From a virus: DNA of 22,659 bases. The DNA is taken from positions 1 to 22,659 of the IMG/VR virus record IMGVR_UViG_3300017989_000459; one strand, written 5' to 3'. The position numbers were made by a program, and so were the translations under genes. Positions 1 through 22,659 of the stretch are shown one piece after another; the stretch's first letter is position 1; each line of letters begins with the position of its first letter. The notes under the pieces are model-generated. The model had not been told where the DNA came from, made no database searches, and saw only the letters and a list, made by a program, of their open reading frames with translations.

Positions 1-1319
1 ATGTGATACAGCCAAGAACTCAGGATAACTGGAGAGATGTTTTACTGCCGGTAGTAGGATATACTTACAATAGCATTACCCACAGGCCGTATAGTCTTAT
101 CTGGAGTACGAAAGACCTTCAGAAGCTATATAAGATCGTAAGTTATCACAGAGAGCTGATGCTGGCTGTCTCCGGAACCCGTGGAAACATTATGGATATG
201 TCTCAAAAGCCTCCTGATCTGTCAAGAGATGAGTGGGAGTATCAGATGAAAATGGGCCGTTGGTACATTTCCAGTACTGATGAAGATGGCCGGCGTAGAG
301 ATACCTCTTTTAATCAGTTTCCCGGATATGATCATACCATTAGCCAGGCTATTCAATTTCTGGACAATATCCTGGTAAGCATAGATAATGAGATCGGTGA
401 AACCATGGGCATTTCCAGACCACGTTTGGGCCAGCAGGTATCTACTGATAAAGTAGGAACCAATCAGCAGTCTCAACAAATGTCTGAGCTTATTACAGAG
501 ATCCTTTATTACGACCATGATACTATAGAGGCCCGGGCACTTACCCAGCTTATCAATTTGAAGATAAAATACGGAATGTCTGAAGATGAACATTTCGAAG
601 TATTTGATGCCAACCTTAACCGTGATCTTGTTAAGATACCTAAAGGTAAATTGCTTAATGCAGATTTTGAGGTACTGGTAAGTGATAATAACAAACAGCT
701 AAGGACAATGGAAGAGTTGAAGCAGTTTGCTATTCGTCAGAATGAAAAGGGGCAGTTACCGTTTTTGGATCTTCTTACAATGTGGACTTCAGAATCCCTG
801 GCAGAGATGCAGGTTAAGCTGGAGTACTTTACAGAGGAGTCTCAGAAACTTGCTGCTAAAATGGCACAGCAGGAACAGCACAATCAAAAAGAGCTGCAGC
901 GTGAGAAGATAGAGCTGGATAATCAGTATAAGAAATTCTTTGAAGAACAGAGAGCACAGATAGAAAAGTATAAAGCTGATTTAGATGATGCTCAGGCTAA
1001 ACGTTCAGAGGATCTTGAGAGACAGAACCAGGCATTGAAGAAATACGAAATCGATGTTGATAAGAACCTTCGTCTTATGGAAATTGCTACGGAAGATAAA
1101 ACCGAAAGCAATATGCTTAAGAACCAGGATAAGCACCAGACCATTCAGGAAAAACTACGTGCTATAGAATTACAGATGCAGCAGGTAATGAATTTTGCAC
1201 AGCTTCAGGTGCAAAAGGACACAGATGATAAAAAGCATACAGAGGCTATGGAGAAGATAAAAGTGGAAGATAAGAAGGCACAGACAATGGGCCGAAAAGA
1301 ACACTTAGTTGATAATTAA
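1..1319 (+). CDS. Portal protein, C-terminal part (5' end outside the window)
   Basis: This is the 3' part of a phage portal gene; the frame is open from the first bases, and the GTG at position 3 is only the first in-window codon, not a real start. The portal forms the dodecameric ring at one capsid vertex through which DNA enters and leaves. The visible 438 residues contain a mixed alpha/beta part (about 1-270) with the aromatic, Gln-rich stretch around residues 143-175 that I recognise from crAss-like portals. A long, highly charged helical tail rich in Glu, Lys and Gln (about 275-435) follows and should form a coiled coil. Members of this family are usually around 700-850 residues (from memory), so roughly half is missing. 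The position two genes before the major capsid gene fits. Identity is by eye; the order portal-scaffold-capsid is the main support. Confidence 0.8.
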   Translation, partial: VIQPRTQDNWRDVLLPVVGYTYNSITHRPYSLIWSTKDLQKLYKIVSYHRELMLAVSGTRGNIMDMSQKPPDLSRDEWEYQMKMGRWYISSTDEDGRRRDTSFNQFPGYDHTISQAIQFLDNILVSIDNEIGETMGISRPRLGQQVSTDKVGTNQQSQQMSELITEILYYDHDTIEARALTQLINLKIKYGMSEDEHFEVFDANLNRDLVKIPKGKLLNADFEVLVSDNNKQLRTMEELKQFAIRQNEKGQLPFLDLLTMWTSESLAEMQVKLEYFTEESQKLAAKMAQQEQHNQKELQREKIELDNQYKKFFEEQRAQIEKYKADLDDAQAKRSEDLERQNQALKKYEIDVDKNLRLMEIATEDKTESNMLKNQDKHQTIQEKLRAIELQMQQVMNFAQLQVQKDTDDKKHTEAMEKIKVEDKKAQTMGRKEHLVDN

Positions 1320-1322
1320 AAA

Positions 1323-1352
1323 TTGACATGACTATATTTATATTATAATTTT
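1323..1352 (+). promoter_or_regulatory. Possible promoter between portal and scaffold-like gene
   Basis: A perfect TTGACA (1323-1328) is followed, after a 15-base spacer, by a perfect TATAAT (1344-1349), in one of the longer gaps of the window (1320-1381). The spacer is two bases shorter than the sigma70 optimum. The primary Bacteroidota sigma factor prefers a TAnnTTTG-type -10; the overlapping TAATTTTA at 1346-1353 matches that in all but the last base. An internal promoter here would raise scaffold and capsid expression over portal. The region is very A/T-rich, so a chance match is quite possible. Confidence 0.35.
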
Positions 1353-1381
1353 ACATAATTATTAATCTAAAACAATGAACA

Positions 1382-2443: not shown

Positions 2444-2485
2444 TATGGAGTAAACATTTTTTATTCTCACTTAAATTAAAAAGAT

Positions 2486-3964
2486 ATGAGATATTTACCG
2501 GGGCAGCCGAGAGATATTGCAAATGAGTCTATATCCTCTCACAGTCTAATGGACGCTGCCGTAGCAAACGCTGATATTCTCCCTACAGTTTTTGAGTTGT
2601 GGAAAGAGGAAGAATCTCCTCTTACGTCGCTTCTTAATGTGAAAGGGATGAAGACTACCGGGCTTTTCGATGGCATGGTAAATAAAAACTACCGTGTAGT
2701 AAAGTCGAATCATGTCCAGTACGCTATTAAGAGTTCAGATAAACGCAAACTGCGTATAAGAAGTAACCCTGATGTGGGTGCTACTTTTTATTCTCCTACC
2801 TACCCGACACAGCCTGGTTTTAACCAGACACCCTTTTACATCTTTTGTGATAGTAACTGGGCGGGCCCAAAAGAGATCCTTGAACTTAACGACAACGACA
2901 CACAGCTTTATATTTATGACGATAATCCTCCTGTAGAATTCGGTGATGCGTGGAGATATGAAGTAAAGCTGATTACCACCGTAAAAGAAGACTTCGTAGA
3001 TGTTTCACTGCTTGCTGAAGGCAATGAGATCGGAGTCGTATCAACAATGGATATCCATGACTTCTCCGAAACAGGTGTTGAGAAATATACCTTCGATGGT
3101 TGGGGCCACGCTTACATGACTCTTCAAAGGCTGAAATATTCCTGGTCAGGTACAGCTGCCGCTATGAAAGAAGATAAATTATGGACTATCCATAATGGCC
3201 AGCAGACTTTCCTTACCCATGCTCAGAATGAAATGATGAAACGTGCAGCACAGTATCACGAATACTGGATGATTTGGGGTAAAGGTACGGTCAGTATGGA
3301 TGGTGAAGTGTTGATGAAGGATAAGAAAAACCGTGAGGTTATGGCCGGTCAGGGTGTTATACACCAGAATGACGGTGCATATGAATATCCTTATAACAAA
3401 TGGACAATGAAGTTCATTGAATCGCTTATGGAAGATGCTGATATCAGAGCCGGTATGGATGGTCTACAGGAAATTGTATTCCTGGGTGGCCGTAAAGCTG
3501 TTTCTGGTTTCTCACAGGCATTACGTGATGCTGGGTTTGTTACTCAGAATAACAACGTAGTAGGCGATGGTGCTTCAAAGGGTGTTATCAACACCTATAG
3601 CTACTATGAGGTTGACGGTGTAAGGATCATACCTAAAAGGTACCGTTGGCTTGATAGCCAGGAAAGAGCTTCTATGTATCTTGATGATGGTACACGAAAA
3701 GGATCTTGGGATGGTATTTTTGTTCCTCTGGGCAATACTCAGGGTGGCGATAAAGGTGTAGAGCTTGTACAGCTCAGGCCTCCTAAGACCGGTACAGTAA
3801 GTGGTATTGATAAAGGTGGTGAAATGGCTACCTCAGTTGATGGTTCACATAAGCATGTACTTTTCCAGACCGGTATCATTTCCAGGAATAAGATCCAGAA
3901 AATCTTCCGCCCTGTTCAGAGCGATTCAGTGTACCTTACACTTGAAGACCAGGGATCACAGTAG
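2486..3964 (+). CDS. Major capsid protein (crAss-like, HK97 fold expected)
   Basis: A 492-residue protein that I recognise as the major capsid protein of crAss-like phages. The N-terminal region (about residues 1-60, helical, with the LMDAAVANADILPTVFELW stretch) and the later glycine-rich segments (for example around 325-335 and 350-360) fit the family. The usual length in this group is about 490-510 residues. It would form the hexamers and pentamers of the icosahedral shell; the HK97 fold is established for crAss-like capsids. No protease gene or obvious cleavage site is seen nearby. Start is ATG at 2486 after an A-rich leader lacking a Shine-Dalgarno sequence, 42 bases downstream of the scaffold-like gene. 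It stops with TAG; reading through that codon would add only two residues before TAA. Confidence 0.88.
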   Translation: MRYLPGQPRDIANESISSHSLMDAAVANADILPTVFELWKEEESPLTSLLNVKGMKTTGLFDGMVNKNYRVVKSNHVQYAIKSSDKRKLRIRSNPDVGATFYSPTYPTQPGFNQTPFYIFCDSNWAGPKEILELNDNDTQLYIYDDNPPVEFGDAWRYEVKLITTVKEDFVDVSLLAEGNEIGVVSTMDIHDFSETGVEKYTFDGWGHAYMTLQRLKYSWSGTAAAMKEDKLWTIHNGQQTFLTHAQNEMMKRAAQYHEYWMIWGKGTVSMDGEVLMKDKKNREVMAGQGVIHQNDGAYEYPYNKWTMKFIESLMEDADIRAGMDGLQEIVFLGGRKAVSGFSQALRDAGFVTQNNNVVGDGASKGVINTYSYYEVDGVRIIPKRYRWLDSQERASMYLDDGTRKGSWDGIFVPLGNTQGGDKGVELVQLRPPKTGTVSGIDKGGEMATSVDGSHKHVLFQTGIISRNKIQKIFRPVQSDSVYLTLEDQGSQ

Positions 3965-3981
3965 TATTAACTATTTAATTT

Positions 3982-5088: not shown

Positions 5089-5090
5089 CC

Positions 5091-5921: not shown

Positions 5922-5936
5922 AATAAATTATAAATC

Positions 5937-7376: not shown

Positions 7377-7393
7377 TCGAAACTAACAAGATT

Positions 7394-7428
7394 GAGAGGC
7401 AGCCTTCGGGCTGTCTTCTCTTTCTTTT
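7394..7428 (+). terminator. Intrinsic terminator with UUCG tetraloop between head and tail modules
   Basis: An 11-base 5' arm (7394-7404) pairs with a 12-base 3' arm (7409-7420) around the extra-stable C(UUCG)G loop at 7405-7408, with a single bulged T near 7417 and one G-T pair. It is followed directly by TTTCTTTT. It lies 18 bases after the stop of the acidic structural gene and ends just before the next ATG at 7441. It probably lowers transcription from the head genes into the tail genes rather than stopping it fully, since no clear promoter fits in the 12 bases that remain. Confidence 0.9.
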
Positions 7429-7440
7429 AATAACACACCA

Positions 7441-8130: not shown

Positions 8131-8133
8131 GAA

Positions 8134-8403
8134 ATGGCATTAAATGTAAAGGAGAAAGCCGAAGGTCTTAGGCAGATAATAGCAGGCTGGAGAAATTACA
8201 TATTTGAAAACCCAAATGTTGAAAAAGAGGCCCACAGAAGAATTAAGATATGCTCGGATTGTTTCTACTGCGATAGAATTACAGTTACCAGGCGTATCCC
8301 TGTTCTGAAAAAGGTCTCTTACATAGGCTGCACTAAATGTAAGTGTCCTATAGAAACAAAAACAAGGAGTTATAAATCAGCATGTCCGATGGGGAAGTGG
8401 TAA
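8134..8403 (+). CDS. Small zinc-ribbon-like protein
   Basis: An 89-residue protein with a helical N-terminal half (residues 5-38) and seven Cys in the second half: C40, C43, C46, then C66, C69, C71 and C84. The CxxCxxC and CxxCxC groups are spaced as in zinc ribbons or treble-clef knuckles and should bind one or two zinc ions. No enzyme motif is present. It is in the same frame as the upstream adaptor gene, separated only by TAG and GAA, and overlaps the next gene by 22 bases. Possible roles are a structural neck component held by zinc or a nucleic-acid-binding assembly factor; neither can be decided from sequence. The bases AGGA close to the start are too near to act as a normal Shine-Dalgarno sequence. 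Confidence 0.7.
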   Translation: MALNVKEKAEGLRQIIAGWRNYIFENPNVEKEAHRRIKICSDCFYCDRITVTRRIPVLKKVSYIGCTKCKCPIETKTRSYKSACPMGKW

Positions 8404-8867
8404 TAGGAAGAATCGTAATGTATGAATCGATCAGGATGAAAGGTAGTGAAGATAACTACCAGTGGTTCCTGGTTAACAGACAGTACGATTATACGGATAC
8501 TCAGATGATTGTTAATCAGTGTGAGGATTGTGCCGTAACATACCAGAAACAGCAAATGATCCATTATAAGGTTTATGTGGATGATGAGTATTTCTGGATA
8601 CCTGATTACGCCTGTGTCGTTTATAATCCGGAGATACCTGAAGAATGGCAGAACAAAGACAAGTATGCCAGGGAGAAGTATGAGGATAAGACTCCGGACA
8701 TGATACAGACCTCAAGAGATGTATTCGGTCAGCCGATAGATAACACCTACAAGATTGATATTAACGACAGACGTTATAAACAGGCCATACAGAAGATTAA
8801 AGAGCAGAACAGAATAATGAAAAGATCGAAAGGATATGGAAAACAGCCAGGGCAACCGGAAGTTTAA
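8382..8867 (+). CDS. Small protein of unknown function in neck/tail cluster
   Basis: A 161-residue protein not recognised as any family. It has a beta-rich, aromatic N-terminal two thirds (Tyr, Trp and Phe frequent, residues about 5-95) and a charged, basic helical C-terminus (about 125-160). The ATG at 8382 overlaps the zinc-ribbon gene by 22 bases and has AAGGAG (8364-8369) twelve bases upstream, which supports it. An in-frame ATG at 8418 would remove the overlap and is the alternative start. The 3' end overlaps the following gene by 32 bases. The chain of overlaps with flanking tail genes suggests co-translation and a role in tail or neck assembly. Confidence 0.6.
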   Translation: MSDGEVVIGRIVMYESIRMKGSEDNYQWFLVNRQYDYTDTQMIVNQCEDCAVTYQKQQMIHYKVYVDDEYFWIPDYACVVYNPEIPEEWQNKDKYAREKYEDKTPDMIQTSRDVFGQPIDNTYKIDINDRRYKQAIQKIKEQNRIMKRSKGYGKQPGQPEV

Positions 8868-9372
8868 GCCACACCTTCAAGAATATGATCAGGTAGATAT
8901 ATATGATTTGTTAAATGATGAAAGTTCTTTGTATAAGGTAAACCGCAACTTTGGATCCTGGGAGGAGCTGATCGGGAATCTGGTAGAAGGTAAGACCAAG
9001 CATTATAAGAGAAGCAGAAAATCACTAAGGCAGAAAGTAGTTACAGAGGTAGTATATGCTTTTCTTGATAGAATGATGAAAGATGTTATATACCACAATG
9101 AGACTTTTGTGTTTCCATATAACAGCTTTGCCAAACTTACCATAGGGATTAATTACGATTTTGATAGTCCTAACTACCGGTTTAATATAATGACTGAAGG
9201 ACTAAACTTTGCTCCCCGGATACTTCTTTCGAACTACTCTTATAAGAAGATAGGAAAGATGTACTATACACGGTTTACCCGAAGATGGAGAAAGCGTCTT
9301 TACATCGAGATTGATAACGGCCACCGTTATGCACCTCAGAAAAAGATAAAATATGAATTACGACAACTCTAA
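8836..9372 (+). CDS. Basic small protein, weakly HU/IHF-like
   Basis: A 178-residue basic protein. Residues about 66-104 read as helix, turn and strand in the order seen in HU/IHF proteins: a Val-Val-x-Ala-Phe-Leu-type helix, then a Phe/Val strand with an aromatic where the 'GFGxF' loop would be. A beta-rich part and an Arg-rich patch (146-154) follow. Crassvirales are known to encode divergent IHF-like proteins, which is why this is worth noting, but the conserved Gly and Pro of the HU arm are not evident, so this is only a suggestion. Otherwise it is an unknown tail-cluster protein. AAAGGA lies immediately before the ATG. It overlaps its upstream neighbour by 32 bases and its downstream neighbour by 20. 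Confidence 0.55.
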   Translation: MENSQGNRKFKPHLQEYDQVDIYDLLNDESSLYKVNRNFGSWEELIGNLVEGKTKHYKRSRKSLRQKVVTEVVYAFLDRMMKDVIYHNETFVFPYNSFAKLTIGINYDFDSPNYRFNIMTEGLNFAPRILLSNYSYKKIGKMYYTRFTRRWRKRLYIEIDNGHRYAPQKKIKYELRQL

Positions 9373-9979
9373 ATACACTGATCACTTAAATATACTTGCA
9401 AGGTTAACCAGGTATATAAAGCAAAAAGAATTTCACCCTGATGATGTAATGGAATGGTGTCAGGAGGTGGAAACAGATTATCTGGGAGATGTGGACAATA
9501 TGTTTTTATTCCTGCAAGTTCCTTTGGTTGTAACCAACTATGCAGCTAAACTTCCTTGTAATGTTCACCGGGTAATAGATATCTACACCGATCCTAACGA
9601 TAATGGATCTATCGTATTTGCAAACAATGACGGAGCCAAACTTTTCTTAGGAAACTGGTACAACAAGGATTATGTATATATAAACTATTACGGCACACCT
9701 ATTAATGATCAGGGAGTGCCTATGATTATCAGGGGCCATGAGCAGGCTTGTGAGGCATATTGTATCCTGAAGGTTTATTATGAAGATATACTCAATGATA
9801 AGGTTTCTACACGTTCTGCTGTAGAGATGAAAGAGGAGTTTAGAAACAAATTGAACATGGCACGCAGAATGGTATTCAGGCATATGACCAGAGAAGATGT
9901 TAATAAAGGAGTTATTATCAGGCATAGTATGATAACACATATAGGCAATCTTGCATTAAAACAAAAAGAGTTTGAATAG
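9353..9979 (+). CDS. Tail adaptor/tubular protein, P22 gp4-like
   Basis: A 208-residue protein resembling the gp4/'tail tubular' adaptors of P22-like and crAss-like phages, which form the ring joining portal and tail. The N-terminal helices (1-50) are followed by the Leu-Pro-Cys-Asn-Val-His-Arg-Val segment (about 68-76), comparable to the 'LPxDxxR' strand of this family. A Tyr-x-Tyr-Ile-Asn-Tyr-Tyr-Gly strand follows, then the Asp-x-Gly-Val-Pro-Met-Ile turn (about 118-126), a long helix with paired Tyr and Tyr-Glu residues and a basic C-terminal helix. Its position directly before the stabilisation protein is the same in P22 and in crAss-like phages. The stop codon TAG shares its final G with the GTG start of the next gene. 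Confidence 0.65.
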   Translation: MNYDNSKYTDHLNILARLTRYIKQKEFHPDDVMEWCQEVETDYLGDVDNMFLFLQVPLVVTNYAAKLPCNVHRVIDIYTDPNDNGSIVFANNDGAKLFLGNWYNKDYVYINYYGTPINDQGVPMIIRGHEQACEAYCILKVYYEDILNDKVSTRSAVEMKEEFRNKLNMARRMVFRHMTREDVNKGVIIRHSMITHIGNLALKQKEFE

Positions 9980-12900
9980 TGAGACAGGTAAATGACTTTT
10001 CAAAAGGGCTTGTAGCTGATCTGGACTATTGCAGACGGCCTACCGGATCGTGGGATTTCCCTACTCAGGGTTACAGGATAATTAATAAAGACGGCCAGGG
10101 TCTTGTGCTTAGTACCATAGATGGTACAGAACACGCTTTCTCTTTGTCGGAAGGTTTTATATCCATGGGTGGCTGTGAGCATAATGGCATCCTTTATATA
10201 GCTTCTTACAATCCTTCTACCGGTCTCTCAGAGGTAGGATCATATCCGAGTCCTAATCAGATAACGGTTGCCGGTACGGGTACCATAAGCTTTGATACCA
10301 GTTTGACCGGATTCTCAAGGACATACAAACCATTGGGTAATATGTACGACGGTATGCTTGCCTTTTTGAAACTCTCTACTTCAGAGCTTAATTTTGGAGA
10401 GGCCTGGGATGATCACAAGCAGATCGATATGTTTGCCCGTGAGGATTATGACGGAAGTGTTAACCTGTATATTACTGATGATACCAATCCTGTTAAGGTT
10501 ATTAATTCTGGTTTCGATCAAGATGGTGTAATGAAATATGGATTAACGCCTGTTCTTGCACCATGGGGAAGGTATTATAATATCGGACAGATAGACAGGC
10601 AGACACGGCTGATTAAACTTACAGACAGCATACCTGGTATTACGGTAAATTCTATTACCAGTGGCGGAAGGCTTAAACCAGGCAACTACTATTTATTTAT
10701 CAGGTACTCTACCCTATCTTTTGATAAGACACCTTTTATTGCGGAGTCTGGCCCGGTACAGGTATTCGATGGTAACAATATGGTAGACATAGAAGGTGCT
10801 ATTGACAATGGCACTACATTTTTGAATAAAAAGATAGCCCTGACCATTGATAATCTTGACCAGGCTTATTCATATTTTGAGATAGGTGTTATCCGTTATT
10901 CCGGAGAGTTTTCACACCTTACCCTTAATGATTACTACCTGATCGATAAGTACTATGTTATTGATGGTGCTACAAAAGATGTTACTATCTATGGCACTGA
11001 AGATAAAATAGACCTCAGCCTGGCAGACTATATAAAAACACCTCCTGCAGAAACTATCTGTAAGGCACATATGCAATCCGACAACCGTTACTGGGGCATA
11101 CACTGGAGAGAAGAACAGCTGAATAAAAATGAACTGGCAGATTTAGCACAGCTGGCACAAGTAACCTACTGGAGAAAAGATATCACAGACGCCATGAGAG
11201 ACGATTACTGGAACTTTCAGAGCTTTGGTGGGCCCGATATACTTGGACAGCATAAAGACTTTCAGAACACCTTAGAATTTACAACTTATTTCAGGGGTGA
11301 GATATATCCTTTTGCTCTTGTTTATTTGCTTGAAAGCGGTCTTGAGACGGAGGCTTATCCTATCCAGGGCCTCGATGAATATAACAGTGCTGCTGCTACT
11401 ACAGGAGTAAACACAAAAGGTATCTATCGTTTTCCTTTCTATAACGGTGGTGCTTACGGTCAGAATGAAAATAACATGGGCCAGGTATTTGGCGTTAAGC
11501 TAAACCTTGTAGCTATACAGGCTGAGATAGCAGCTAATCCGGATAAGTATAGCCACATAAAAGGTTTTTACCTTGTACGTGGAGATCGTATACCCAATAT
11601 GCTGTACCAGGGATTTATGCTAAAGGCTTTTAACGGAGTAACTCCTTACCAGCATGCAGGCGGCCCGGGCACACAAGGCTGGCTCAGGTGGAAGTCTCCG
11701 TATAATAATGATGATATGTTTTTCGGTAATTCTGATGCTGTTACCGGAGAGCTTGCCAATGAAGGTAATTCAAAATACTTTCCCTTTTATAGAGGGTGGA
11801 TGCCTACTGATGATAATATTTCCGGAGAGCATGACAGTGGAAGTCCGAGTATAGGCAGGGCAGATTACATACCTACTCAGGATAGCTTAACCAATACTGA
11901 CTTTCTCAGCCAGGGTAAGCCTAAATATGGTATCTATAGTCCGAGCCATTTATTTGAGATAAGCAATATAGTATCTGATAACGAAACTGTTTACATACGC
12001 AAGTTATATACCGTTACCTCCCCATCTGGTTATGAGCATAGCATATCTGATATCTCACCTGAAACTTTTCTCTTCGATCTTGGTATAGGACTTGATCCTA
12101 CTGTTAATGTAGAAGCTCTTACGGCCAATAGCTATAAAGCTAAGTTCTACAATGTAGTGGGATCTTCTTACGGAACGGTTGCACAGTTTTGCTCTAAGTT
12201 TGAGGACTACTATAATAATCATCAGGAAATGGCTTTTGCCTGGATGCGGAGATTAAATGTTTCTACTTTAAACTGGGAAGATATATGTAACAGGAGTATT
12301 AAGACCTGCAGGTATATCGGAATAGAGCTGGATGATCCTACAGCTGATCTGGGCAATAATACAATGGTAAACATTAATCGTTATGCAGATCCTACAAGTT
12401 ACTGGGATGCCTCCCTTGCCGGCTTTTCTCCTGAGAATGCCAATTATTATAAAATATCTGACCTTATCGAAATAGACAGCGTACCCTCTAATGTGCTTGT
12501 CTACCGTGGAGACGGTTTTCTGCAGAGAACTTTCTTCAGACAGTTACGCTGGAATTTGATACCTACTATCTGGGATGATACAAAGACACCTGAATACAAG
12601 CATGGCCTGGTTATGGGATTTGTATCTGAGAACACTATTAATACAGCAATGAGAAATGACGTTCCGTGGGAGACTTCAGAGAACTCCGGAACATATACAT
12701 ATTATCCTAAGTCTCTTAACAGAGGATTATCAAGCGGAGATGTACTGCAGTGGGGAGCATTGCAGGAGGGTGATGATTATCTTCAAGAGGCTTTTTATAT
12801 AAACCCTGGGTACAATGTTACCACATCTGAGAAGTTTTACACCGGATTTAATGCACATCTGCCATTTTATCCGAGCAAGAAACCAACCAGGATAAGGTAT

Positions 12901-14028
12901 TCATCAGTACATACGCCATACAGTTATATCGATGGATATGCCATTATGGATATAGATGCTTATCAGGATTATGATCTTTCTAAAGGAGAGATGGTAGGTA
13001 TCGGAGAAATTAATAATCGTATTGTTACCATACAACACAGAGCTATCAACAGACATTTTAGTAGCGAAAGACAAGTACAGGCTCCCACAAGCGAAGGAGA
13101 AATAATTATCGGTACCGGAAGTATTCTTACATCACAGGTACAGGTATTGGCAGAGTACGGCAGTCAGCACCAGTGGAGTATTCAGCATGGTTACAGAGGC
13201 GTTTATGGTGTGGACTGGAACATGAGGATCATCTGGAGGATTAATGAGGTTAAATCAAATTTGGGAAGTAGGTATTTTACGGTGGATAATCTTACAGAAG
13301 ATAAACTGGTTAGTACATGGCTGGAGAACCTTGCAGACGACAACCAGAGTGATATCACGAACCAGCTTGGCGATAACCCGATAAGGTCAAGTGGAGTGCT
13401 AACCGGTTTTGATCCTCGGTTTAAGGAAATGTATTTTAATTTTGCTATCTATGATGATAGTGTAGATCCGGAACTGGGTAACATTAATCAGACCTTGCTG
13501 TTTTCTGAGAGGCTGGACTTCTTCTTAGGAACAGTACCTTTGCAGGAGCCGGGTATGTTCTTTAACATAAATAATGAGCTGTTAGGATGCCAGAAGTTAT
13601 CAGGAGATATACACCTGTTCAATGAAGGAGATCCTTTGGTATTCTTCGGAGAAAGACAGGATGCTATTTTCTCAGTTGTAGTCAATGGCCTTAATGAAGG
13701 AGAGAATACGGCTGACCTGGTTAAGTACTATGGAGATATTAAGATCCTTACCAATGCTACCTCTTTCAGTGAGCTGGTGCTGCAGACGCTTTACCAGCTT
13801 GAAACAAGGAACCCGTTTATAGATCCTAATAAGTTTTGGTTAAATGCAGAGTACCTTGATCATAAATGGAGGATACCAATAGGCAAGCAGACCAGTCCTA
13901 AAGCAAATGAGTTTGAAGCTGATTCACGTATCAGGGGGGCCTGGATGAAAATGTCTTTAACATACTCAGGAGAAGAAGAAGTTTTTGTAAAGTTTGTAGA
14001 CACGGAGTTTAATTTAAGTTTTGTATAA
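9979..14028 (+). CDS. Tail muzzle / stabilisation protein
   Basis: A 1349-residue protein, the largest complete one in the window. The first residues (Arg-Gln-Val-Asn-Asp-Phe-Ser-Lys-Gly-Leu) match the opening I know from the crAss-like tail stabilisation proteins, distantly related to P22 gp10 (about 470 residues) and called the muzzle in the crAss001 structure. It forms the lower part of the short tail that controls genome release. The sequence is rich in Tyr, Gly, Asn and Asp with short beta strands throughout, as expected of propeller and beta domains. The C-terminus (Arg-Gly-Ala-Trp-Met near 1317, then beta strands) is also typical. The start is GTG overlapping the previous TAG by one base, with AAAGAG (9965-9970) upstream. 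The stop TAA shares its last A with the next ATG. Confidence 0.85.
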   Translation: MRQVNDFSKGLVADLDYCRRPTGSWDFPTQGYRIINKDGQGLVLSTIDGTEHAFSLSEGFISMGGCEHNGILYIASYNPSTGLSEVGSYPSPNQITVAGTGTISFDTSLTGFSRTYKPLGNMYDGMLAFLKLSTSELNFGEAWDDHKQIDMFAREDYDGSVNLYITDDTNPVKVINSGFDQDGVMKYGLTPVLAPWGRYYNIGQIDRQTRLIKLTDSIPGITVNSITSGGRLKPGNYYLFIRYSTLSFDKTPFIAESGPVQVFDGNNMVDIEGAIDNGTTFLNKKIALTIDNLDQAYSYFEIGVIRYSGEFSHLTLNDYYLIDKYYVIDGATKDVTIYGTEDKIDLSLADYIKTPPAETICKAHMQSDNRYWGIHWREEQLNKNELADLAQLAQVTYWRKDITDAMRDDYWNFQSFGGPDILGQHKDFQNTLEFTTYFRGEIYPFALVYLLESGLETEAYPIQGLDEYNSAAATTGVNTKGIYRFPFYNGGAYGQNENNMGQVFGVKLNLVAIQAEIAANPDKYSHIKGFYLVRGDRIPNMLYQGFMLKAFNGVTPYQHAGGPGTQGWLRWKSPYNNDDMFFGNSDAVTGELANEGNSKYFPFYRGWMPTDDNISGEHDSGSPSIGRADYIPTQDSLTNTDFLSQGKPKYGIYSPSHLFEISNIVSDNETVYIRKLYTVTSPSGYEHSISDISPETFLFDLGIGLDPTVNVEALTANSYKAKFYNVVGSSYGTVAQFCSKFEDYYNNHQEMAFAWMRRLNVSTLNWEDICNRSIKTCRYIGIELDDPTADLGNNTMVNINRYADPTSYWDASLAGFSPENANYYKISDLIEIDSVPSNVLVYRGDGFLQRTFFRQLRWNLIPTIWDDTKTPEYKHGLVMGFVSENTINTAMRNDVPWETSENSGTYTYYPKSLNRGLSSGDVLQWGALQEGDDYLQEAFYINPGYNVTTSEKFYTGFNAHLPFYPSKKPTRIRYSSVHTPYSYIDGYAIMDIDAYQDYDLSKGEMVGIGEINNRIVTIQHRAINRHFSSERQVQAPTSEGEIIIGTGSILTSQVQVLAEYGSQHQWSIQHGYRGVYGVDWNMRIIWRINEVKSNLGSRYFTVDNLTEDKLVSTWLENLADDNQSDITNQLGDNPIRSSGVLTGFDPRFKEMYFNFAIYDDSVDPELGNINQTLLFSERLDFFLGTVPLQEPGMFFNINNELLGCQKLSGDIHLFNEGDPLVFFGERQDAIFSVVVNGLNEGENTADLVKYYGDIKILTNATSFSELVLQTLYQLETRNPFIDPNKFWLNAEYLDHKWRIPIGKQTSPKANEFEADSRIRGAWMKMSLTYSGEEEVFVKFVDTEFNLSFV

Positions 14029-14454: not shown

Positions 14455-15543
14455 ATGGCACTTTTAAACAGAATATATGGAGATAATCCTCCTGGAAATA
14501 CACCCAGCTATATGACAAAGAGTTTTTGGAGTGGTATAGGTAAGAAGATCGTAGGAGATTTAGGAATTAATACAGATATTCCTGCGGAGACGGTAGAAAC
14601 ACCGGTTCCTTTGCCTACATCAAAACGTGCAGCTGGTGGAGCTTTTGTTACACCAACAACATCTGGTGTAAATACACTTGTCAGTAAACCGGCTATGACA
14701 ACTATGGGCAGTACAGCATTTGCACCTACCGACACTCAGGGATACAGGCCACAAACTGTAGGTACAACACAGCCTGCCCAGGCTTCTGGCCCGCCTGCTA
14801 CACGCACACCTATTCCAGATCTGAATACCGACCTGGAGGCTATACCTCCTCCAACATCTATAAGTGCAGGTAATCTGGAACAATTAAAAAGAGAGGGTAT
14901 CGCAAAGAGTAAATATGAATCTTTATATCAACCGGAGAAATCTCAGAGCCTTTCAGCCCTTGAGCAGTACAGAAATATGGTAGATAAAGCTGTACGCACC
15001 GGAGGCTTGGTAGATGCTGCCTCTGCTTTTTACAATATGGGTATTGCTCAAAGAGAACTTAATCGGATCCCTTCTGATAAACTGGAAGCACCTATTGTAA
15101 GAGCTCCCCGGCTGTTAAGTCCTGCTCAGGCTGTAAAAACTGCAACCACAGAGGAGATCAAGAGAACATACAGCGGAGCCAGGCAACTGTTATCAGAAAG
15201 CGGCAGAGGTGATCTTATTGTTGGTCTTACAGCAGATGAAGTGGCGGCTCGCAGTGATGTAGCTGCACAGGCCGCAATAACTGATTATGATGTTATCAAC
15301 AAAAATATTGCTGCAGAGACAGAGGCTCTTAACCTGAGCGATTCAATCCGTATGGATGTTGACTTTAAAAATATGCAAATGCAGATACAGGAGAATATGA
15401 TGTCAGGCCAGATTATATCTGAGGCAGTAGCTTCGTTGGGAGATACCGCCAGGCAATTTATTAACAGAATGACAGAGGCGGAGTATGATAAGTGGGTAGC
15501 TGATTTATTAACCAGAGAGAGAAACATGCAGTTTCTTGGATAA
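14455..15543 (+). CDS. Putative virion cargo protein, unrecognised fold
   Basis: A 362-residue protein without a recognised domain. Residues about 1-30 are polar and aromatic. A long Pro/Thr/Gly/Ala-rich, probably disordered stretch (about 40-140) follows, and the remainder is mainly helical with many Ala, Glu, Gln and Arg (about 140-360). This 'flexible N-terminus plus helical body' layout fits internal virion proteins, which must unfold to pass through the tail. Position between tail and giant-protein genes supports a cargo role but does not prove it. It starts one base after the preceding stop and ends eleven bases before the next gene. Confidence 0.55.
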   Translation: MALLNRIYGDNPPGNTPSYMTKSFWSGIGKKIVGDLGINTDIPAETVETPVPLPTSKRAAGGAFVTPTTSGVNTLVSKPAMTTMGSTAFAPTDTQGYRPQTVGTTQPAQASGPPATRTPIPDLNTDLEAIPPPTSISAGNLEQLKREGIAKSKYESLYQPEKSQSLSALEQYRNMVDKAVRTGGLVDAASAFYNMGIAQRELNRIPSDKLEAPIVRAPRLLSPAQAVKTATTEEIKRTYSGARQLLSESGRGDLIVGLTADEVAARSDVAAQAAITDYDVINKNIAAETEALNLSDSIRMDVDFKNMQMQIQENMMSGQIISEAVASLGDTARQFINRMTEAEYDKWVADLLTRERNMQFLG

Positions 15544-15554
15544 AATCTAATACT

Positions 15555-17384
15555 ATGCCATTAGTAAAATCAAAAAGAGGTGGTCAGGCTTTATTTCTTA
15601 CTCCGTACAGATCGGAGATTCCTATCGCTATACCTCCCCCAGATATATTTAATAAATTATTAAGTGCTACTCGGGCAAGATCTTCCGGAACATCTAAAGA
15701 AGATGATATTGATGCTCTTCCTGAACAGCATTTAGGATTGTTAAGGCAAAGACGTTCTATTGCTGGTGCAGAGAGGGCTCTTAGGAGAGATGCTGTAAAT
15801 CTGCTTGATCAGGAATATAATGGCGACTTTGAGGCTTTTATTGAGGGTGAACGCAAAAAGGGCACTGATGGATATTTTTCCAGAAGAAATGCTATCTATG
15901 ATCTTGAAGATATGTACCAGGTTAACGTAGGTATAGCAGGTGCGGAAAAGGAGAAATACGAAAAAGCATATAATGAAGCTCTTACTAACCAGGCTTTGTA
16001 TGATTATGCTATCGACCCAAAGACCGGCCAACGCAGACCTAAGTATGATCTTACCGGAGAGTTTACGGGAGAATATTACACTGTACTGGAATGGTTAGAA
16101 CGTGGTAGGTTCGGACTTCAGATAGATCCTAATGTTGGAACAGCACAAACGTATGTGTGGGGAGATACTGAGAAGGCCGGACAGTTTCAGGAGAAGATAA
16201 ACACCTTGACCTCAAGAGCTGCAGGATCGTGGGATAAATATACTACACAGAGCAGTTTGTTTGATCAGAATGATAAGTTGTTGATTTCCGGAGATGATAT
16301 GTATAGTTTTATTCCCAGGACTACCACTACCGTTACAACTAATAAAAGACAACTGGATGCTGTAGCCACTACCATGGAAGATGTTCTCAATAGAGATGAA
16401 CGCAGAGATATGATGCAGGAATGGTGGGCGTTTAAGGATACTCATCATATGGTTCCAGGATTAACCGATAGACAAAACAGGGCTATATGGTTACAGGCCA
16501 GGGTAAGAGGAGAAACAGACCTTGCAGAAAAGTATGGATTTGAATCTAAGACAGGACTTATCAGGCCCGGAGATATAGCAGATCCTAAAGCAGAAAGTAT
16601 TTTCTGGCAGGCACACACAGGCAAACTGCAAAGTGATACACCTTCAGAAGTATATCGCAGGGGTGCAGGAACTACTATTGTGGGCCCAAGCACTTATGGT
16701 ACTCAGGCTAAGATAGCAGCACCGCACCAGGCAGATAATGTTAATGATGCTCTGCTTACAAGCCTGTTGAGAGGCAACGGTTATAAAGCCTCCTCGATGC
16801 CTTCTAAATTCTTTTACAGTTATAATGATGTTCCTAATCCTATGTCTGTATTCGAAAATAAGAAAGCATATCTTATTGGTGTTACCACTAATTTTAAAGA
16901 TGAACCGGCACCAGTAACTTATGAGAATGAACAAAGGGAGATGGTTTATGATCTTTTTGATGTACCTGGTATTGCTAAAGCATATAATACTACCAATCGT
17001 GCTGCAGAACAGATATTGGCCGAAGGCGGAATACCTGTAAAGACAGTAGAGATGCAGATCGCTGTATCTTCAGATGATTGGAAAGAGGTAAAGAAACAGA
17101 TCAGAGATATAAAACTTAGCGGAAAGAACGCTATGAAGGTAGTAGAAGGAGGTATAGAAGAAGATGATGTAATTACCCTGAGTAAAGGATCAGGATCCTG
17201 GGTTGAGGGAGATTATCATCTTATTACTATCAGAGGAGTGCTTGACGAAAATATGGCACAATTCTTCTCTAACCTTTCATTTGCAAAAGGACAATCACAG
17301 ATAAGCTCGGGTCGTTATGAGCAAGGACAGCAACAACGGCAAAGCCAAATTGAACATATAAAAAGCATAGGGGAGATTGAATAA
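15555..17384 (+). CDS. Putative virion cargo protein, 609 residues
   Basis: A 609-residue protein that I cannot assign to a named family. The first 16 residues resemble the N-terminus of the adjacent cargo-type genes (short, basic, hydrophobic). A charged helical region (about 50-150) follows, then mixed alpha/beta segments with many aromatic residues (150-330), a beta-rich part (about 430-580) and a Gln/Ser-rich end (580-609). No catalytic motif was found. Crassvirales carry several large proteins at this position that are found in the capsid lumen or tail as cargo, so the same is inferred here. Its stop TAA overlaps the start of the giant frame by one base. Confidence 0.58.
   Translation: MPLVKSKRGGQALFLTPYRSEIPIAIPPPDIFNKLLSATRARSSGTSKEDDIDALPEQHLGLLRQRRSIAGAERALRRDAVNLLDQEYNGDFEAFIEGERKKGTDGYFSRRNAIYDLEDMYQVNVGIAGAEKEKYEKAYNEALTNQALYDYAIDPKTGQRRPKYDLTGEFTGEYYTVLEWLERGRFGLQIDPNVGTAQTYVWGDTEKAGQFQEKINTLTSRAAGSWDKYTTQSSLFDQNDKLLISGDDMYSFIPRTTTTVTTNKRQLDAVATTMEDVLNRDERRDMMQEWWAFKDTHHMVPGLTDRQNRAIWLQARVRGETDLAEKYGFESKTGLIRPGDIADPKAESIFWQAHTGKLQSDTPSEVYRRGAGTTIVGPSTYGTQAKIAAPHQADNVNDALLTSLLRGNGYKASSMPSKFFYSYNDVPNPMSVFENKKAYLIGVTTNFKDEPAPVTYENEQREMVYDLFDVPGIAKAYNTTNRAAEQILAEGGIPVKTVEMQIAVSSDDWKEVKKQIRDIKLSGKNAMKVVEGGIEEDDVITLSKGSGSWVEGDYHLITIRGVLDENMAQFFSNLSFAKGQSQISSGRYEQGQQQRQSQIEHIKSIGEIE
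17369..17375 (+). promoter_or_regulatory. Strong Shine-Dalgarno-like site before the giant gene
   Basis: AGGGGAG lies eight bases before the ATG at 17384, inside the last codons of the upstream gene. This is one of the few starts in the window with a clear anti-16S complementarity at good spacing, and it supports the chosen start of the giant protein. The codons it overlaps code for ordinary residues (Gly-Glu), so chance cannot be excluded. Confidence 0.5.
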
Positions 17385-20300
17385 TGCCAGACAACCAACC
17401 TGATGTTAAAAAGTATGATTACTTACCATTTTTTTATGGAGGATTATCAACACAAGAAATAAATAAGACTTTAGAAAATGAATTGCGATCTAACCCGGGA
17501 TTAGGAATAGATATGCAATTTTTGCCTTACGACGAATCCAAAAAAAAGTATGTCGAAGGCGGTCTTATTCCTGAAGGAGATTTTGACGGAATATATAATG
17601 CTGCTTACCAGAGCTACGATCAGTGGTCAAGAAATAAATTCAATGGCCGTGTAGCACCTTTATGGAAGTATGATGCCGGATTAGATCAGGAACGGCCTGA
17701 TCAGTATATTAATGGTAACTTAGACTTCAGCTTTATAACTCCTCAGCCTAAGCTGGGCTATACTATTCAGGGAGAAAAGAAACTTTCTGAAGAACAGATA
17801 GCTGATGGTCGTGGAGTATTTATTGATATGCAGGGTAACAGGCAAGAGCTTGATACCGGCTTTCTCAGTAATACATTTAAAGTTGTTGATGGCCTTATTA
17901 AATCTGCTGCAGCTGTATGGTACGATGAAGATAAAATGAATACACTTTATCAGCGTGCAGAAGCAACAGATCAGGATTTCTTTAAAAGGCCTACTTTATA
18001 TGCTCTTACTTATGATGAAGATAGTGTTCCTATCTGGAAAGAGGTAGATTATAAAGAAGCACAAAAAGGTTCTCAGATACGATCTATATTTGGCCCTAAT
18101 GCTATGCACAATTCTTTCATGGGATCTTTTGCCAGGGGGCTCTATAAAATCCTTCCGAGTCTGTATTCCATGGGCGGTTCTATGCTTGAAGTGGGAGATA
18201 ATCTTACAGACCTGATCTTTAATGAAGGGGTGGATAGACCCAGTAAGGTAGAGGATCTGGGCAGGATACTGCAGAACTTTGCTGCAGCTACCTCAGCTAA
18301 ACCCAGCGAGGAGGCCTTAAATGAAGGTATCTTTAAATCATGGGAGTCTTTCGGATATCAGTTTGGTAATGTTACCAGCCAGCTTTTACTTCAGGCTCTT
18401 TCTGCAGGTACTCTGTCTGCATTGGGATTTGGTGTTAAGGCAGCACAGTGGGGATCTTTTGGAGTATTTGGAATATTGGGTATGGATGCCATGAACCAGG
18501 TAGGTAAAGAAAATGGAATCGATCCTATGGATATAGCATGGATGGCTCCGACTGTAGGTGCTATAGAAATGATTACAGAAGGTGTTATCGGCCCTCATGT
18601 TATTAGTACTACCGGATCACAACTATTAAGGCGTGGAGCTGCTAAAAAGGCTATAAAGGATGCTGTAGATGAAACGGTACGCAAGTATGGTGTTAAGTCT
18701 GTAAGAGACCTTTCTACTGAAGGTAAAAAAGCTGTAGTCCGAGGATCAATACGCAACCTTAACAAACTATTCTCAGACCTTTCTACTCCTGTAGGAAGAA
18801 CAGCTATGGCTGCCCGGGAAGAAGGACTTGAGGAAGTAGTAGCAGAATTAGGCCAGAATGTATTGACCTTTATCCATGATGCAAGAGAATCTGTAACCAA
18901 TCCTGCAGCAACGCCAGGCTTCGGATTATTCGGAGAAATTGATGAGAGTTCCTGGGATAGAGGTTTCTTAAAAAGGCTCCCGGAAGGAATAATGGAGTCT
19001 TTTGTTCTCGGTGCACTGGGAGGTATGACAGCTTATGCCGGTAAGAGTGGCGTAGATCGCTGGACAATGGGTGCAGAACAGTGGCGTAATCAGAAAAGAA
19101 GGCAGACTATTCGTGAAGTAGTTGCCCAGGGAGATGCCAAAAAGCTGTACGGTATCCTTGAGGATATGTATCAAAAAGGACAGCTGGAGTATAACCACCT
19201 TGACTCTAAAGGAAATGTTATTACAGCTAACCTTATGGGCCAGGTTGAGTCTCTGAATGATGTTATGTATAAGACCATTAAAGAGGAGATCGATTACTAT
19301 GAACAACTGCGTACCCAGTATGGTTTAACCAGGCCTGATATTATTGAACGTTTTGGAGGAGATTTCGCCTCTGCAGATAAGGCCCTTGAACAGCTGGATA
19401 TAATGACTAAAACACAGGAACAGATAGCTGATATGGAGGCTAAGAGTTCCAGTGGTGAAACTCTTGAAGGTACACAGCAGGATGATCTGCAAACGCTTCA
19501 GGATACCTATAAGAAAGCACAGGAAGAATTTAACCGTATTACACAGCCTGAGCATAACAATACTAAGTACAGCGAGTATTATAATGATAAGGTAAAAGAT
19601 GCTTCTGCTAAGATTACTCTTTCACAAGGCATGGCTGATGCCTACTATAAAAACCAGAAGAAAAATGTTACAGATGATTTTCGCAAGACACCGGAATACC
19701 TGAATACTCTTGGAGCCTTTTCCTTATTTGTACCAGATTCTTTTTATAACAATGTAAAGACTTTTAACCAGGGCTTTGAAGAGTATAAACAGGAACAGGC
19801 TCAGATTGAACAGGATCGTACCACTCAGCAAGAGAAAAAGGTATCAAGTATAGAAAAACTGATTAAAGAAATCCCAGGTCTGCCTAAAGAAAATATTAAT
19901 GATGCTGTACGGTCTATAGGGCTGCAATTATCCGAGATTCTTAATATAGGATCAGTAGAAGGTGTTACTCCTCAAATGTCTGAAGAATTTCAGAGTATTT
20001 TCGATACTGCTCTTTCGGAACTAAAAGAATTAGGCGGAGAGGAGCTTCAGGAATATGAGACCCTTGAACAGCAATATGAGGCCGGTACCGAACAGGAGAG
20101 AGAAGATATTGTTGAGAAGTTGGATTTTCATCCTGCAAGAAAAATATCTCAGGATATTAAAGGCATGGGTGATACAGTTAAAAGTATCGTTGAAGGACTT
20201 ACTCCTAAAAAGCGTAGGGGTAAAACAGAAAAACAATTACTCAGGGATTATTTTTCTAAGAGCATAAGAGAACAGGTAGATGCTTTATTAGTACCTAAGA

Positions 20301-22659
20301 CCGGTGCTGATGGTAAAGTAACCTATGAAGTTAATCCTGCAGCTTTACAAGGACAGAATTTAGAAGCCTTACAAAACGATATAGAATCATTTATTAAGAT
20401 AGCTAATGAGAATCTTATGATTGCCAACTTTGATCATAAGGTACTTAATAATGAGTTTAAAGATGATCCTGATAAAAGGCAACATATCAGTAAGAATGAT
20501 AATGTTCTATCCCAGAATCAATATGATCAAATCCGGAAAGATCTGGAATCGGTTTTGATGAAGCTCAGAGCTGTTAAGACTGATGTTCAAAAGGCCAGTG
20601 CTGACAGAGATATATTTCAGCAGAAGCTTAGGCAGATGAATGCAGAGTTTGATAGAATTACTCTTTCCTTGCTTATGGACTCAGAGATAGGCAAAAGCTT
20701 TCCGGAGATCCGTAACCTGGTTAATGCTTTAAAGAAACTCAATGATGATGTTCGTGTAAGTGATAAGACCCTTACTGAAGAACAAATAGCAGAACTTAAT
20801 GATAAAGAAAAACAGCTGCAGAACATCAATGAGCTAATATATAAGAACAGGGATAAGATATTTACTCCTGAGAACATCAAAAGGGTTATTACAAATGTAT
20901 TTCAGACACGCAAACGCCCACGTTATTACCTGCAGTCAAGAGAATATACAGGTAACTACCGACAAAAGCTAAGAGAGCTGGGAGAACATAACTTTGCTAA
21001 TAGTGATTTCGGGTATGTTCATTTTGTCAACTACATGACTAAAGTTGGTGCTGTTAATACTAAGGACTTACTTGCCAAAAGGAAAAAGATGATCGATCTT
21101 TATGTAAGCGGTAAGTATCAGTTTTTATCTTCTTATGAGCAACAACAGGTAGAGGATCTGGTAGTAGCATTTTTAAATGGAGGCACAAGTGTACTGGAAG
21201 CTGTTATTGAGGCTGAAACGGCCTATGCTAATTCTGTAGGAACTACCAAGAAGACACAAGATGCAAACCTGGGCCTGTTTATCGAAAACACTTTGTTTAT
21301 AAGAGGAGACTACGGATCTGGTAAGTCTAACCAGGTTTTGCCTATGGCACTGGAACTATACTATAGAATTAATAATAACAAGCCTGTTAAGAATGTTCTT
21401 ATTGTAGGTATATCCCCACATATAGAAGCACAGCTAAAGGCGGCTGTTCCAGATGGATTTGCAAAAAACCTGAAAGTTGTAACGACACAACAATTTTTTA
21501 GCAAGAAATCACTTCCTAAAGCAGATATTGTACTTTGGGATGAAGCCTCTTTGCTTACAAAAGAGCACTATAATAGTATCCGTTCCCGCAGGCCTAAAGG
21601 ATCTAAGATGGTATTTATGGGAGATGATTCACAGATGCGTTCTATGGAAACCAAACGTTCCGTAGCAGAGTCTCAGAATGCTTCTTTAAAAACAGCACCC
21701 CTGACTACCATATATTCTACTGGCTCTTCTATTATAACCAATCTTGCAAATGCCTGGCGTTATCAGGCTGTAAGGATGAAGTCTGCAGAGGAGTTTCCTA
21801 AAGCCTACCATGAAGCTGATTCTTCTGGTAATGGTATGCGTGGTACAGAATATTTTGCTACGGAAGATGATGTAGTTAAAGCCTTTGTTGCAAGCAACTC
21901 TACTGATAAGGCATTGATTCTGCTTAACGATCAACATTTCGAGGAGTTTTTGAAAAAGTATCAAGATGTTTGGGATAACCACAAGTCCAATATTTATATT
22001 TTGGATCCACGAGTAGCACACCAGACACCCCCCAATCATCCTCAGAGTATGCAAGGTTCAAGAGCCAATGATGTTTATGTAGCAATTAACCTGTATGATA
22101 TAGACTATAAGTTTCCAGGGATCAGAGATGCTACTAAATCAGCTGCCGGTTATACAGCTATTACCAGGGCCCGTAATTATGTGGGCATGGTAGGATATTC
22201 TGCATGGGAAGTTGATGTAGGTGGTAATACTGCCAGTAAGGAGCTTACAGCATGGAGAGATGCAGAGCCTTCTTTGTCTCAAGAAGAAAAAGATCGAATC
22301 CTTAAAGAGTACACAGATCGTATTAATCGGATCCTGGGAGAGCAACAAAGCCCTCAGCCTACAGAAAAAGCACCTGACACCACTCCGGAAGATAAAACAA
22401 TCAGGGTAAAGAAAGGTGGTTTCTACCGTATTAACAAGGGTGATAATAAGGGCAAACTGGTTAAGGTAACATCAGAGCCTATCAGACTGGATGGAGATGT
22501 GGTTTTTGAAGTGCAGGAATATATTAACAGGAAAACACCTGTTGATAATAAAATGAATGTAGCTCAGGAATTACTTTCATCTGAAGCAGGATATACCAGA
22601 GGAGAAGGACACCGGCCAATGTCTACCAGCACTATGTTCGGATTGTCTACCAATGAAAG
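17384..22659 (+). CDS. Giant multidomain virion protein with internal SF1 helicase (3' end outside the window)
   Basis: An open frame of 1758 codons with no stop, running off the window; I translated it row by row. Start ATG overlaps the previous stop (TAATG). Residues 1-240 are unassigned. Residues about 240-420 hold Gly/Ala-rich hydrophobic stretches (best at 327-420), and a further one lies at 537-550, as in internal virion proteins that cross the host envelope. An acidic Glu-rich helix at 479-495 precedes this last one. Residues about 600-1280 are charged, helical and coiled-coil-like. Residues about 1295-1610 carry superfamily 1 helicase motifs: Walker A GDYGSGKS (K1314), Walker B DEAS (1386-1389), GDDSQ (1413-1417), MQG-type motif V (1556-1558) and YTAITRAR motif VI (1590-1597). 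A Pro/Glu linker and KOW-like segment follow. Delivery with the DNA is inferred from position; the missing 3' part may hold further domains such as a polymerase. Confidence 0.85.
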   Translation, partial: MPDNQPDVKKYDYLPFFYGGLSTQEINKTLENELRSNPGLGIDMQFLPYDESKKKYVEGGLIPEGDFDGIYNAAYQSYDQWSRNKFNGRVAPLWKYDAGLDQERPDQYINGNLDFSFITPQPKLGYTIQGEKKLSEEQIADGRGVFIDMQGNRQELDTGFLSNTFKVVDGLIKSAAAVWYDEDKMNTLYQRAEATDQDFFKRPTLYALTYDEDSVPIWKEVDYKEAQKGSQIRSIFGPNAMHNSFMGSFARGLYKILPSLYSMGGSMLEVGDNLTDLIFNEGVDRPSKVEDLGRILQNFAAATSAKPSEEALNEGIFKSWESFGYQFGNVTSQLLLQALSAGTLSALGFGVKAAQWGSFGVFGILGMDAMNQVGKENGIDPMDIAWMAPTVGAIEMITEGVIGPHVISTTGSQLLRRGAAKKAIKDAVDETVRKYGVKSVRDLSTEGKKAVVRGSIRNLNKLFSDLSTPVGRTAMAAREEGLEEVVAELGQNVLTFIHDARESVTNPAATPGFGLFGEIDESSWDRGFLKRLPEGIMESFVLGALGGMTAYAGKSGVDRWTMGAEQWRNQKRRQTIREVVAQGDAKKLYGILEDMYQKGQLEYNHLDSKGNVITANLMGQVESLNDVMYKTIKEEIDYYEQLRTQYGLTRPDIIERFGGDFASADKALEQLDIMTKTQEQIADMEAKSSSGETLEGTQQDDLQTLQDTYKKAQEEFNRITQPEHNNTKYSEYYNDKVKDASAKITLSQGMADAYYKNQKKNVTDDFRKTPEYLNTLGAFSLFVPDSFYNNVKTFNQGFEEYKQEQAQIEQDRTTQQEKKVSSIEKLIKEIPGLPKENINDAVRSIGLQLSEILNIGSVEGVTPQMSEEFQSIFDTALSELKELGGEELQEYETLEQQYEAGTEQEREDIVEKLDFHPARKISQDIKGMGDTVKSIVEGLTPKKRRGKTEKQLLRDYFSKSIREQVDALLVPKTGADGKVTYEVNPAALQGQNLEALQNDIESFIKIANENLMIANFDHKVLNNEFKDDPDKRQHISKNDNVLSQNQYDQIRKDLESVLMKLRAVKTDVQKASADRDIFQQKLRQMNAEFDRITLSLLMDSEIGKSFPEIRNLVNALKKLNDDVRVSDKTLTEEQIAELNDKEKQLQNINELIYKNRDKIFTPENIKRVITNVFQTRKRPRYYLQSREYTGNYRQKLRELGEHNFANSDFGYVHFVNYMTKVGAVNTKDLLAKRKKMIDLYVSGKYQFLSSYEQQQVEDLVVAFLNGGTSVLEAVIEAETAYANSVGTTKKTQDANLGLFIENTLFIRGDYGSGKSNQVLPMALELYYRINNNKPVKNVLIVGISPHIEAQLKAAVPDGFAKNLKVVTTQQFFSKKSLPKADIVLWDEASLLTKEHYNSIRSRRPKGSKMVFMGDDSQMRSMETKRSVAESQNASLKTAPLTTIYSTGSSIITNLANAWRYQAVRMKSAEEFPKAYHEADSSGNGMRGTEYFATEDDVVKAFVASNSTDKALILLNDQHFEEFLKKYQDVWDNHKSNIYILDPRVAHQTPPNHPQSMQGSRANDVYVAINLYDIDYKFPGIRDATKSAAGYTAITRARNYVGMVGYSAWEVDVGGNTASKELTAWRDAEPSLSQEEKDRILKEYTDRINRILGEQQSPQPTEKAPDTTPEDKTIRVKKGGFYRINKGDNKGKLVKVTSEPIRLDGDVVFEVQEYINRKTPVDNKMNVAQELLSSEAGYTRGEGHRPMSTSTMFGLSTNE
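21266..22210 (+). other. SF1 (RecD/Dda/UvrD-like) helicase domain inside the giant frame
   Basis: Helicase motifs appear in the correct order: motif I (Walker A, 21302-21331), Ia-like VLIVGISP (near 21398), Ic-like VVTTQQFF (near 21476), motif II DEAS (21539-21550), III GDDSQ (21620-21634), IV-like YSTGSSII ending in an Arg at 21758, V MQGSRANDVYV (near 22049) and VI YTAITRAR (22151-22174). DEAS and TAITRAR are most like RecD/Dda/TraI-type enzymes. The usual Tyr-Arg-Ser of motif IV reads Tyr-Ser-Thr here. All ATP-contacting residues needed for activity appear present, so a working DNA translocase is predicted. Confidence 0.82.
22403..22491 (+). other. KOW/SH3-like segment after the helicase
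   Basis: Residues about 1674-1703 read Val-x-Lys-Gly-Gly-x-Tyr-x-Ile-x-x-Gly-Asp-Asn-x-Gly-Lys-Leu-Val-x-Val, the spacing of a KOW motif (hydrophobic strand, Gly-Asp, Gly-Lys, hydrophobic strand). KOW and SH3-like beta barrels bind nucleic acid or protein partners. It follows a Pro/Thr/Glu linker after helicase motif VI. The match is by eye on a short stretch. Confidence 0.4.

Follow-up and report, generated by a model that had tools for sequence, protein, structure and literature searches.

Why should a giant protein in the cargo region of a crAss-like phage contain an SF1 helicase, and is this helicase delivered into the cell with the virion cargo? The window, a stretch of 22,659 nucleotides (IMG/VR record IMGVR_UViG_3300017989_000459), is 22.7 kb of such a phage genome. 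All features located here are on its plus strand: the C-terminal part of the portal protein (3..1319; phrog_6547 portal, 1.3e-21), the major capsid protein (MCP, 2486..3964; Crass_capsid, 3.9e-20; PDB 7qof gp32), the muzzle protein (9979..14028; crAss_MUZ, 1.4e-26), ORFs of 141, 362 and 609 aa, and a giant ORF (17384..22657). MCP and muzzle are Crassvirales markers, and with order-specific MCP, muzzle and portal all present, the virus is placed in this order, in agreement with an earlier sequence-only reading that had called it crAss-like. The 362-aa ORF (14455..15543; no Pfam match) and the 609-aa ORF (15555..17384; no confident Pfam match), which adjoins the giant ORF upstream, are in the positions of cargo proteins 1 and 2 by synteny with DAC15 and PhicrAss001. 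Muzzle, smaller ORFs and giant follow one another as the virion cargo genes do in these two phages, and the assignment of the locus to a cargo region therefore holds. Positions 1-9611 are 100% identical to IMGVR_UViG_3300017987_000113 (54.3 kb, another dataset), and the two contigs jointly span about 67 kb of the window virus. This second contig prolongs the window in the upstream direction only, and its 54.3 kb have no match to the RNA polymerase (RNAP) profile. The proposed extension at the 3' end failed, as an exact 38-mer searched in viral contigs had no match.

The giant ORF runs from an ATG, which overlaps the stop codon of the upstream ORF (TAATG) and has GGGGAG upstream, to the end of the contig through 1758 codons with zero stops. 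The frame is open at the contig end and the protein is thus incomplete at its 3' end, as had been recognised. Single-sequence searches with the giant retrieved nothing from IMG/VR, INPHARED or PDB; relatives were found via MCP-based searches, and one more via the helicase alignment. Residues 3-1702 are colinear with the giant of the relative G012, an independent contig (E=5e-68). The window is a metagenomic contig only and its frame ends at the contig edge, as might be expected if a virion gene and a helicase gene had been joined in an assembly chimera. However, the colinear G012 giant and five more independent records have the same order, which upholds the unbroken frame and refutes a chimera for the helicase-bearing giant family; the probability left to this explanation is close to nil.

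The helicase module covers residues ~1167-1624 (20882..22255), as defined by AAA_30, the family profile, PDB profile matches and Foldseek, with the helicase itself at ~1253-1610. Pfam AAA_30 itself covers residues 1307-1461 (E=4.2e-7, above the curated cut-off). The sequence shows SF1 motifs Q, I, II, III, V and VI, beginning with a Q-motif-like Q1253. In an alignment of seven homologues (A5; 15-25% identity to the window), twelve columns are invariant and nearly all of these are catalytic SF1 positions. Motif I (Walker A) is GDYGSGKS (residues 1308-1315, 21305..21328), with G and K invariant, and motif II (Walker B) is DIVLWDEAS (1381-1389, 21524..21550), with D1381 and E1387 invariant. Motif III is GDDSQ (1413-1417, 21620..21634; G, D and Q invariant), motif V is QGSRANDV (~1557-1564, 22052..22075; G1558 invariant), and motif VI is YTAITRARN (1590-1598, 22151..22177), where T1591 and the arginine finger R1595 are invariant. 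A profile of the seven homologues, searched against PDB, matched RecD, Pif1-type, DSH9 and TraI chains. An AlphaFold model, built from the window and IMG/VR alignment rows only, has moderate confidence (pLDDT 61.6, pTM 0.62). With this model, Foldseek retrieved RecD, RecD2, Dda, DSH9 and nsp13-type helicases; the probability is 1.0 for RecD, Dda and RecD2, yet the TM-scores are ~0.2. With such TM-scores and moderate model confidence, the fold match lends support without deciding the matter. The complete-looking SF1 motor is recovered by motifs and profiles, and more loosely by structure prediction. Taken together, the sequence comparisons confirm the prediction of an SF1B-type (RecD/Pif1/Dda-like) helicase in the window giant. 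The helicase alignment, searched against a collection of bacterial genomes, found no relatives.

The motif IV arginine is present in G002, G008, MT835470 and MT835492, is unaligned in the window and G013, and is not clearly aligned in G012. Thus, activity in the sub-branch of window, G012 and G013 could be altered. Together with the fast evolution and low identity of the module, this would fit an ATPase that has lost its activity or degenerated and now has a structural or DNA-binding role. However, the Walker A K, Walker B E, motif III GD-Q, motif V G and motif VI T--R are invariant in 7/7 sequences, which implies selection for ATP hydrolysis and makes an inactive domain improbable.

Upstream of the helicase, the N-terminal region (residues 1-650, 17384..19333) is alignable among the seven helicase-bearing phages (alignment A7) and has no confident transmembrane segment. 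This part had been described as membrane-like, but the hydropathy scan of the window ORF gave no 19-residue segment with a mean of at least 1.5, and residues ~240-560 are Gly/Ala-rich and weakly hydrophobic at most, so the description is the weaker part of that reading. The middle part is plausibly a coiled-coil. Homology of the N-terminal region to the N-terminus of PhicrAss001 gp47 was also considered, and is not supported, as the profile comparison gave no significant match.

Six further divergent crAss-like phages have the helicase in the corresponding position: G002, G008, G012, G013, MT835470 and MT835492. As it is the same domain, in the same relative place, with invariant catalytic residues, the fusion is no accident of assembly. 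A helicase profile built without G012 and G013 recovered both (G013, 2.4e-13, in a 3690-aa ORF open at its 3' end; G012, 3.7e-11, 4886 aa). The most complete view comes from G002 (IMGVR_UViG_3300028840_006004, 92.6 kb), whose 144-bp terminal direct repeat indicates a complete genome. Here the muzzle is followed by ORFs of 323 and 849 aa and then by a single 6810-aa ORF, with the helicase at ~1436-1936 (Walker A at 1561), HExxH at 2937, GSDYDID at ~4680 and a second HExxH at 5462. The 6663-aa giant of G008 (IMGVR_UViG_3300001335_000566) has the same domains in the same order at 1477, 2828, 4485 and 5288. The chain in both is thus N-terminal region, helicase, zincin, RNAP loop GSDYDID, second zincin and C-terminus. 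Giant ejected proteins of this group are known for RNAP domains, and G002 and G008 join the helicase to RNAP and zincins. The place of the window's 609-aa ORF is taken by an ORF of 635-849 aa in G002, G008, G012 and G013. In the human gut phage MT835470 the helicase is inside a 2967-aa ORF, and separate RNAP (split) and zincin ORFs follow it. In MT835492, also from human gut, the N-terminal part and the helicase are separate neighbouring ORFs, with TAG read as sense; its stretch (MT835492.1) has no ORF of at least 250 aa under table 11 and nine above 400 aa with TAG as sense. The giants of cr272_1 (NC_055903.1) likewise have 37 and 18 in-frame stop codons, of which zero remain with TAG = Q. 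Scanning the rest of the giants with Pfam and PHROGs gave no confident further domains.

An RNAP block alignment (A4) was made from six sequences: PhicrAss001 gp50, cr272_1, G002, G008, MT835492 and, in part, MT835470. These have a common PT...S...GSDxDxD core (MT835470 in part). The A4 profile recovers the held-out virion RNAP (vRNAP) gene g066 of phi14:2 (1.5e-23) and also matches DAC15 and three further Suoliviridae, and a profile of the first zincin recovers PhicrAss001 gp47 (1.2e-8). From these matches, the full-length relatives look like gp47-type and RNAP-type cargo fused with a helicase. Mass spectrometry has identified PhicrAss001 gp47, gp49 and gp50 as proteins of the virion (PMC10172136). 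On the strength of the virion-type domains of its relatives and the gene order, we infer that the window protein is packaged in virions.

The position after the muzzle gene is shared by the window protein and gp47, gp49 and gp50 of PhicrAss001 (Steigviridae), and the gp47 HExxH zincin and gp50 GSDxDxD block are common to the full-length relatives. However, the PhicrAss001 cargo is three separate proteins with no helicase by profile, and with N-termini not detectably related to the window giant. In phi14:2, gp66 shares the RNAP block matched by the A4 profile, which comes partly from G002 and G008, but is a protein of 2180 aa without helicase, and the window stretch ends short of the RNAP.

The window contig ends before the zincin and RNAP positions, and G012 (IMGVR_UViG_3300025316_000011, 36772-51432), its closest relative by giant ORF, is of special relevance here. 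The giant ORF of G012 has a normal end, and in its C-terminal part it matches G002 and G008. However, its zincins are about 1,040 residues apart, versus about 2,500 in G002 and G008, and the profile finds no RNAP block in the 81 kb of this genome. As G012 lacks a terminal repeat, an RNAP in an unsequenced part is possible; a natural loss of vRNAP in a crAss-like phage is likewise possible. The tie between helicase and RNAP is therefore not general, and the window virus may lack the RNAP as well; its architecture may be of either the G002 or the G012 type. The G012 sequence between the zincins (EIQSDWGQ...) looks similar to domains found in polyvalent proteins of phages.

With all HMMER filters off, the helicase profile matched none of the giants of PhicrAss001, cr272_1, cr130_1, cr55_1, cr10_1 and cr273_1, nor DAC15 gp078, phi14:2 g067/g068 or the part of the cr60_1 giant searched. 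A degenerate helicase hidden in gp47, g067 or the Suoliviridae giants was rejected on these grounds. Whole-record searches of these genomes and of cr124_1 with the profile were also empty, and in one Intestiviridae and one Crevaviridae genome the helicase matches fall in stand-alone ORFs (390 and 501 aa). Thus, cr50_1 apart, no giant-protein helicase was found in the tested Suoliviridae, Steigviridae, Crevaviridae and Intestiviridae genomes. The survey suggested earlier thus finds the helicase at this place in six crAss-like relatives and its absence from most other giants tested. As most tested Crassvirales giants have no helicase, it is not essential for vRNAP delivery.

The exception, gp059 of cr50_1 (Suoliviridae), is a 4774-aa giant with a zincin at 1665, GSDFDID at 3153 and a complete C-terminal SF1B helicase (Walker A at 4275). 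Like the window lineage, it combines SF1B helicase, zincin and RNAP in a single chain, encoded at the same locus. Unlike in that lineage, the helicase is at the extreme C-terminus and belongs to a different SF1B branch, clustering with stand-alone phage helicases apart from the window's family (split support 100/99). The cr50_1-type helicase is missing from the related cr10_1 giant. From this branch placement and the absence in cr10_1, two independent fusions are the best reading. Residues ~4040-4110 of cr50_1 gp059 (FVFGSNTQGKHGKGAA), between RNAP and helicase, look like a macro-type domain.

The window ORF is best read as a quarter or a third, at the N-terminal end, of a giant crAss-like phage cargo protein made as one chain. 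In the lineage to which it belongs, the gp47-type zincin is preceded by an SF1B helicase, which would be ejected as a translocase on incoming DNA, with or beside vRNAP; a probability of about 0.6 is given to this reading as a whole. The giant protein would be packaged and ejected like gp47, gp49 and gp50, and would refold inside the cell. The helicase would then use ATP to translocate along the phage DNA as it enters, drawing the genome in, stripping bound proteins and opening the DNA for early transcription by vRNAP. In giants that have no vRNAP (G012, perhaps the window virus), the role in DNA entry and clearing would stand alone. A wider proposal is that at least two independent builds of an SF1B motor into the ejected vRNAP chain of Crassvirales gave a self-contained machine for entry and transcription, the motor outlasting a lost polymerase in one branch. 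The repeated, independent fusion suggests that the pairing of helicase and vRNAP is functional; the proposal as a whole is tentative, at less than even odds.

SF1 helicases occur among the replication genes of crAss-like phages (PMC7886860), and the helicase could accordingly be a non-virion one that lies in the late operon by chance and is active in replication only. However, MT835470 and MT835492 have a second, stand-alone SF1 helicase outside the cargo block (MT835470.1 3354-3935, 456-aa frame; MT835492.1 46665-47162, 506-aa frame), and the giant's helicase is in the cargo block, in the same chain as virion-type RNAP and zincin. A role confined to replication thus seems very improbable.

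The main rival to an ejected translocase working on incoming DNA is a motor injected against host defence in the manner of the polyvalent protein DarB, which would act on defence or repair complexes at the ends of the entering DNA and not with vRNAP. Injected polyvalent proteins encoded near virion genes combine zincins, helicases and other activities, and in N4 a metallopeptidase is joined to the vRNAP (PMC5512222). The relatives of the window protein have features of this type (helicase, HExxH zincins and RNAP, beside virion genes). The RecD-like fold of the helicase fits such a role, and G012, where the helicase is kept and RNAP was not found, is somewhat in its favour. However, two independent SF1B fusions into RNAP-bearing chains point to DNA opening and transcription, and in the giants Pfam confidently recognises neither a methylase or nuclease nor any other partner dedicated to counter-defence. 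LPD, MPTase-PolyVal or similar families also have no Pfam match in the giants of the window, G002, G008, G012 and G013. The anti-defence role is on balance unlikely, but carries more weight than any other alternative.

P1 DarB and other polyvalent proteins resemble the relatives here as injected multidomain giants that have zincin and helicase modules and are encoded close to virion genes, but the helicase of DarB is SF2 (SWI2/SNF2) with a methylase, versus SF1B here; SF1 UvrD is reported in polyvalent proteins of conjugative-type contexts only, and crAss phages are not mentioned (Iyer et al. 2017, PMC5512222). RecD/RecD2, Dda, Pif1 and DSH9, the best profile or fold matches of the helicase, are themselves stand-alone proteins or RecBCD subunits, and the match of HelD, which is SF1-type and RNA polymerase-bound, is limited to the region around Walker A. 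The N4 vRNAP fold is of the single-subunit type and differs from the crAss RNAP. The N4 protein (Schitoviridae) is a giant ejected RNAP with a metallopeptidase, and no helicase is among its listed associations (PMC5512222).

The sequence-only reading knew of no helicase described in a giant ejected protein of this group. In part this stands, as no description of a crAss vRNAP-helicase fusion was found in the literature searched, which takes in few of the subscription journals. However, RefSeq names cr50_1 gp059 'DNA helicase', and injected polyvalent giants with SF2 helicases (DarB), and SF1 in conjugative elements, are published (PMC5512222). Giant crAss vRNAP proteins of up to ~6,000 aa are also known (PMC10136315). 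Already known, therefore, are the crAss vRNAP giants, helicases in injected giants outside Crassvirales, and the helicase label of cr50_1 gp059.

The finding touches on the way in which podophages with ~100-kb genomes use protein cargo to complete DNA entry and begin transcription. If packaged, a helicase in the vRNAP chain would be a concrete, testable motor for this step. Helicase-bearing giants are also a marker for little-described environmental and gut Crassvirales. The crAss-like phages are among the most abundant human gut viruses, and MT835470 and MT835492, with the N-terminal-type helicase, together with cr50_1, suggest that the helicase matters in the gut too. Giant cargo genes carry scattered, inconsistent names: the RNAP/zincin giant gp79 of cr130_1 is a 'DprA-like DNA recombination-mediator protein' in RefSeq. 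A protein of CrAss-like virus ctcfK29, at least 1310 aa long, is likewise listed in BFVD as an 'ATP dependent DNA helicase'.
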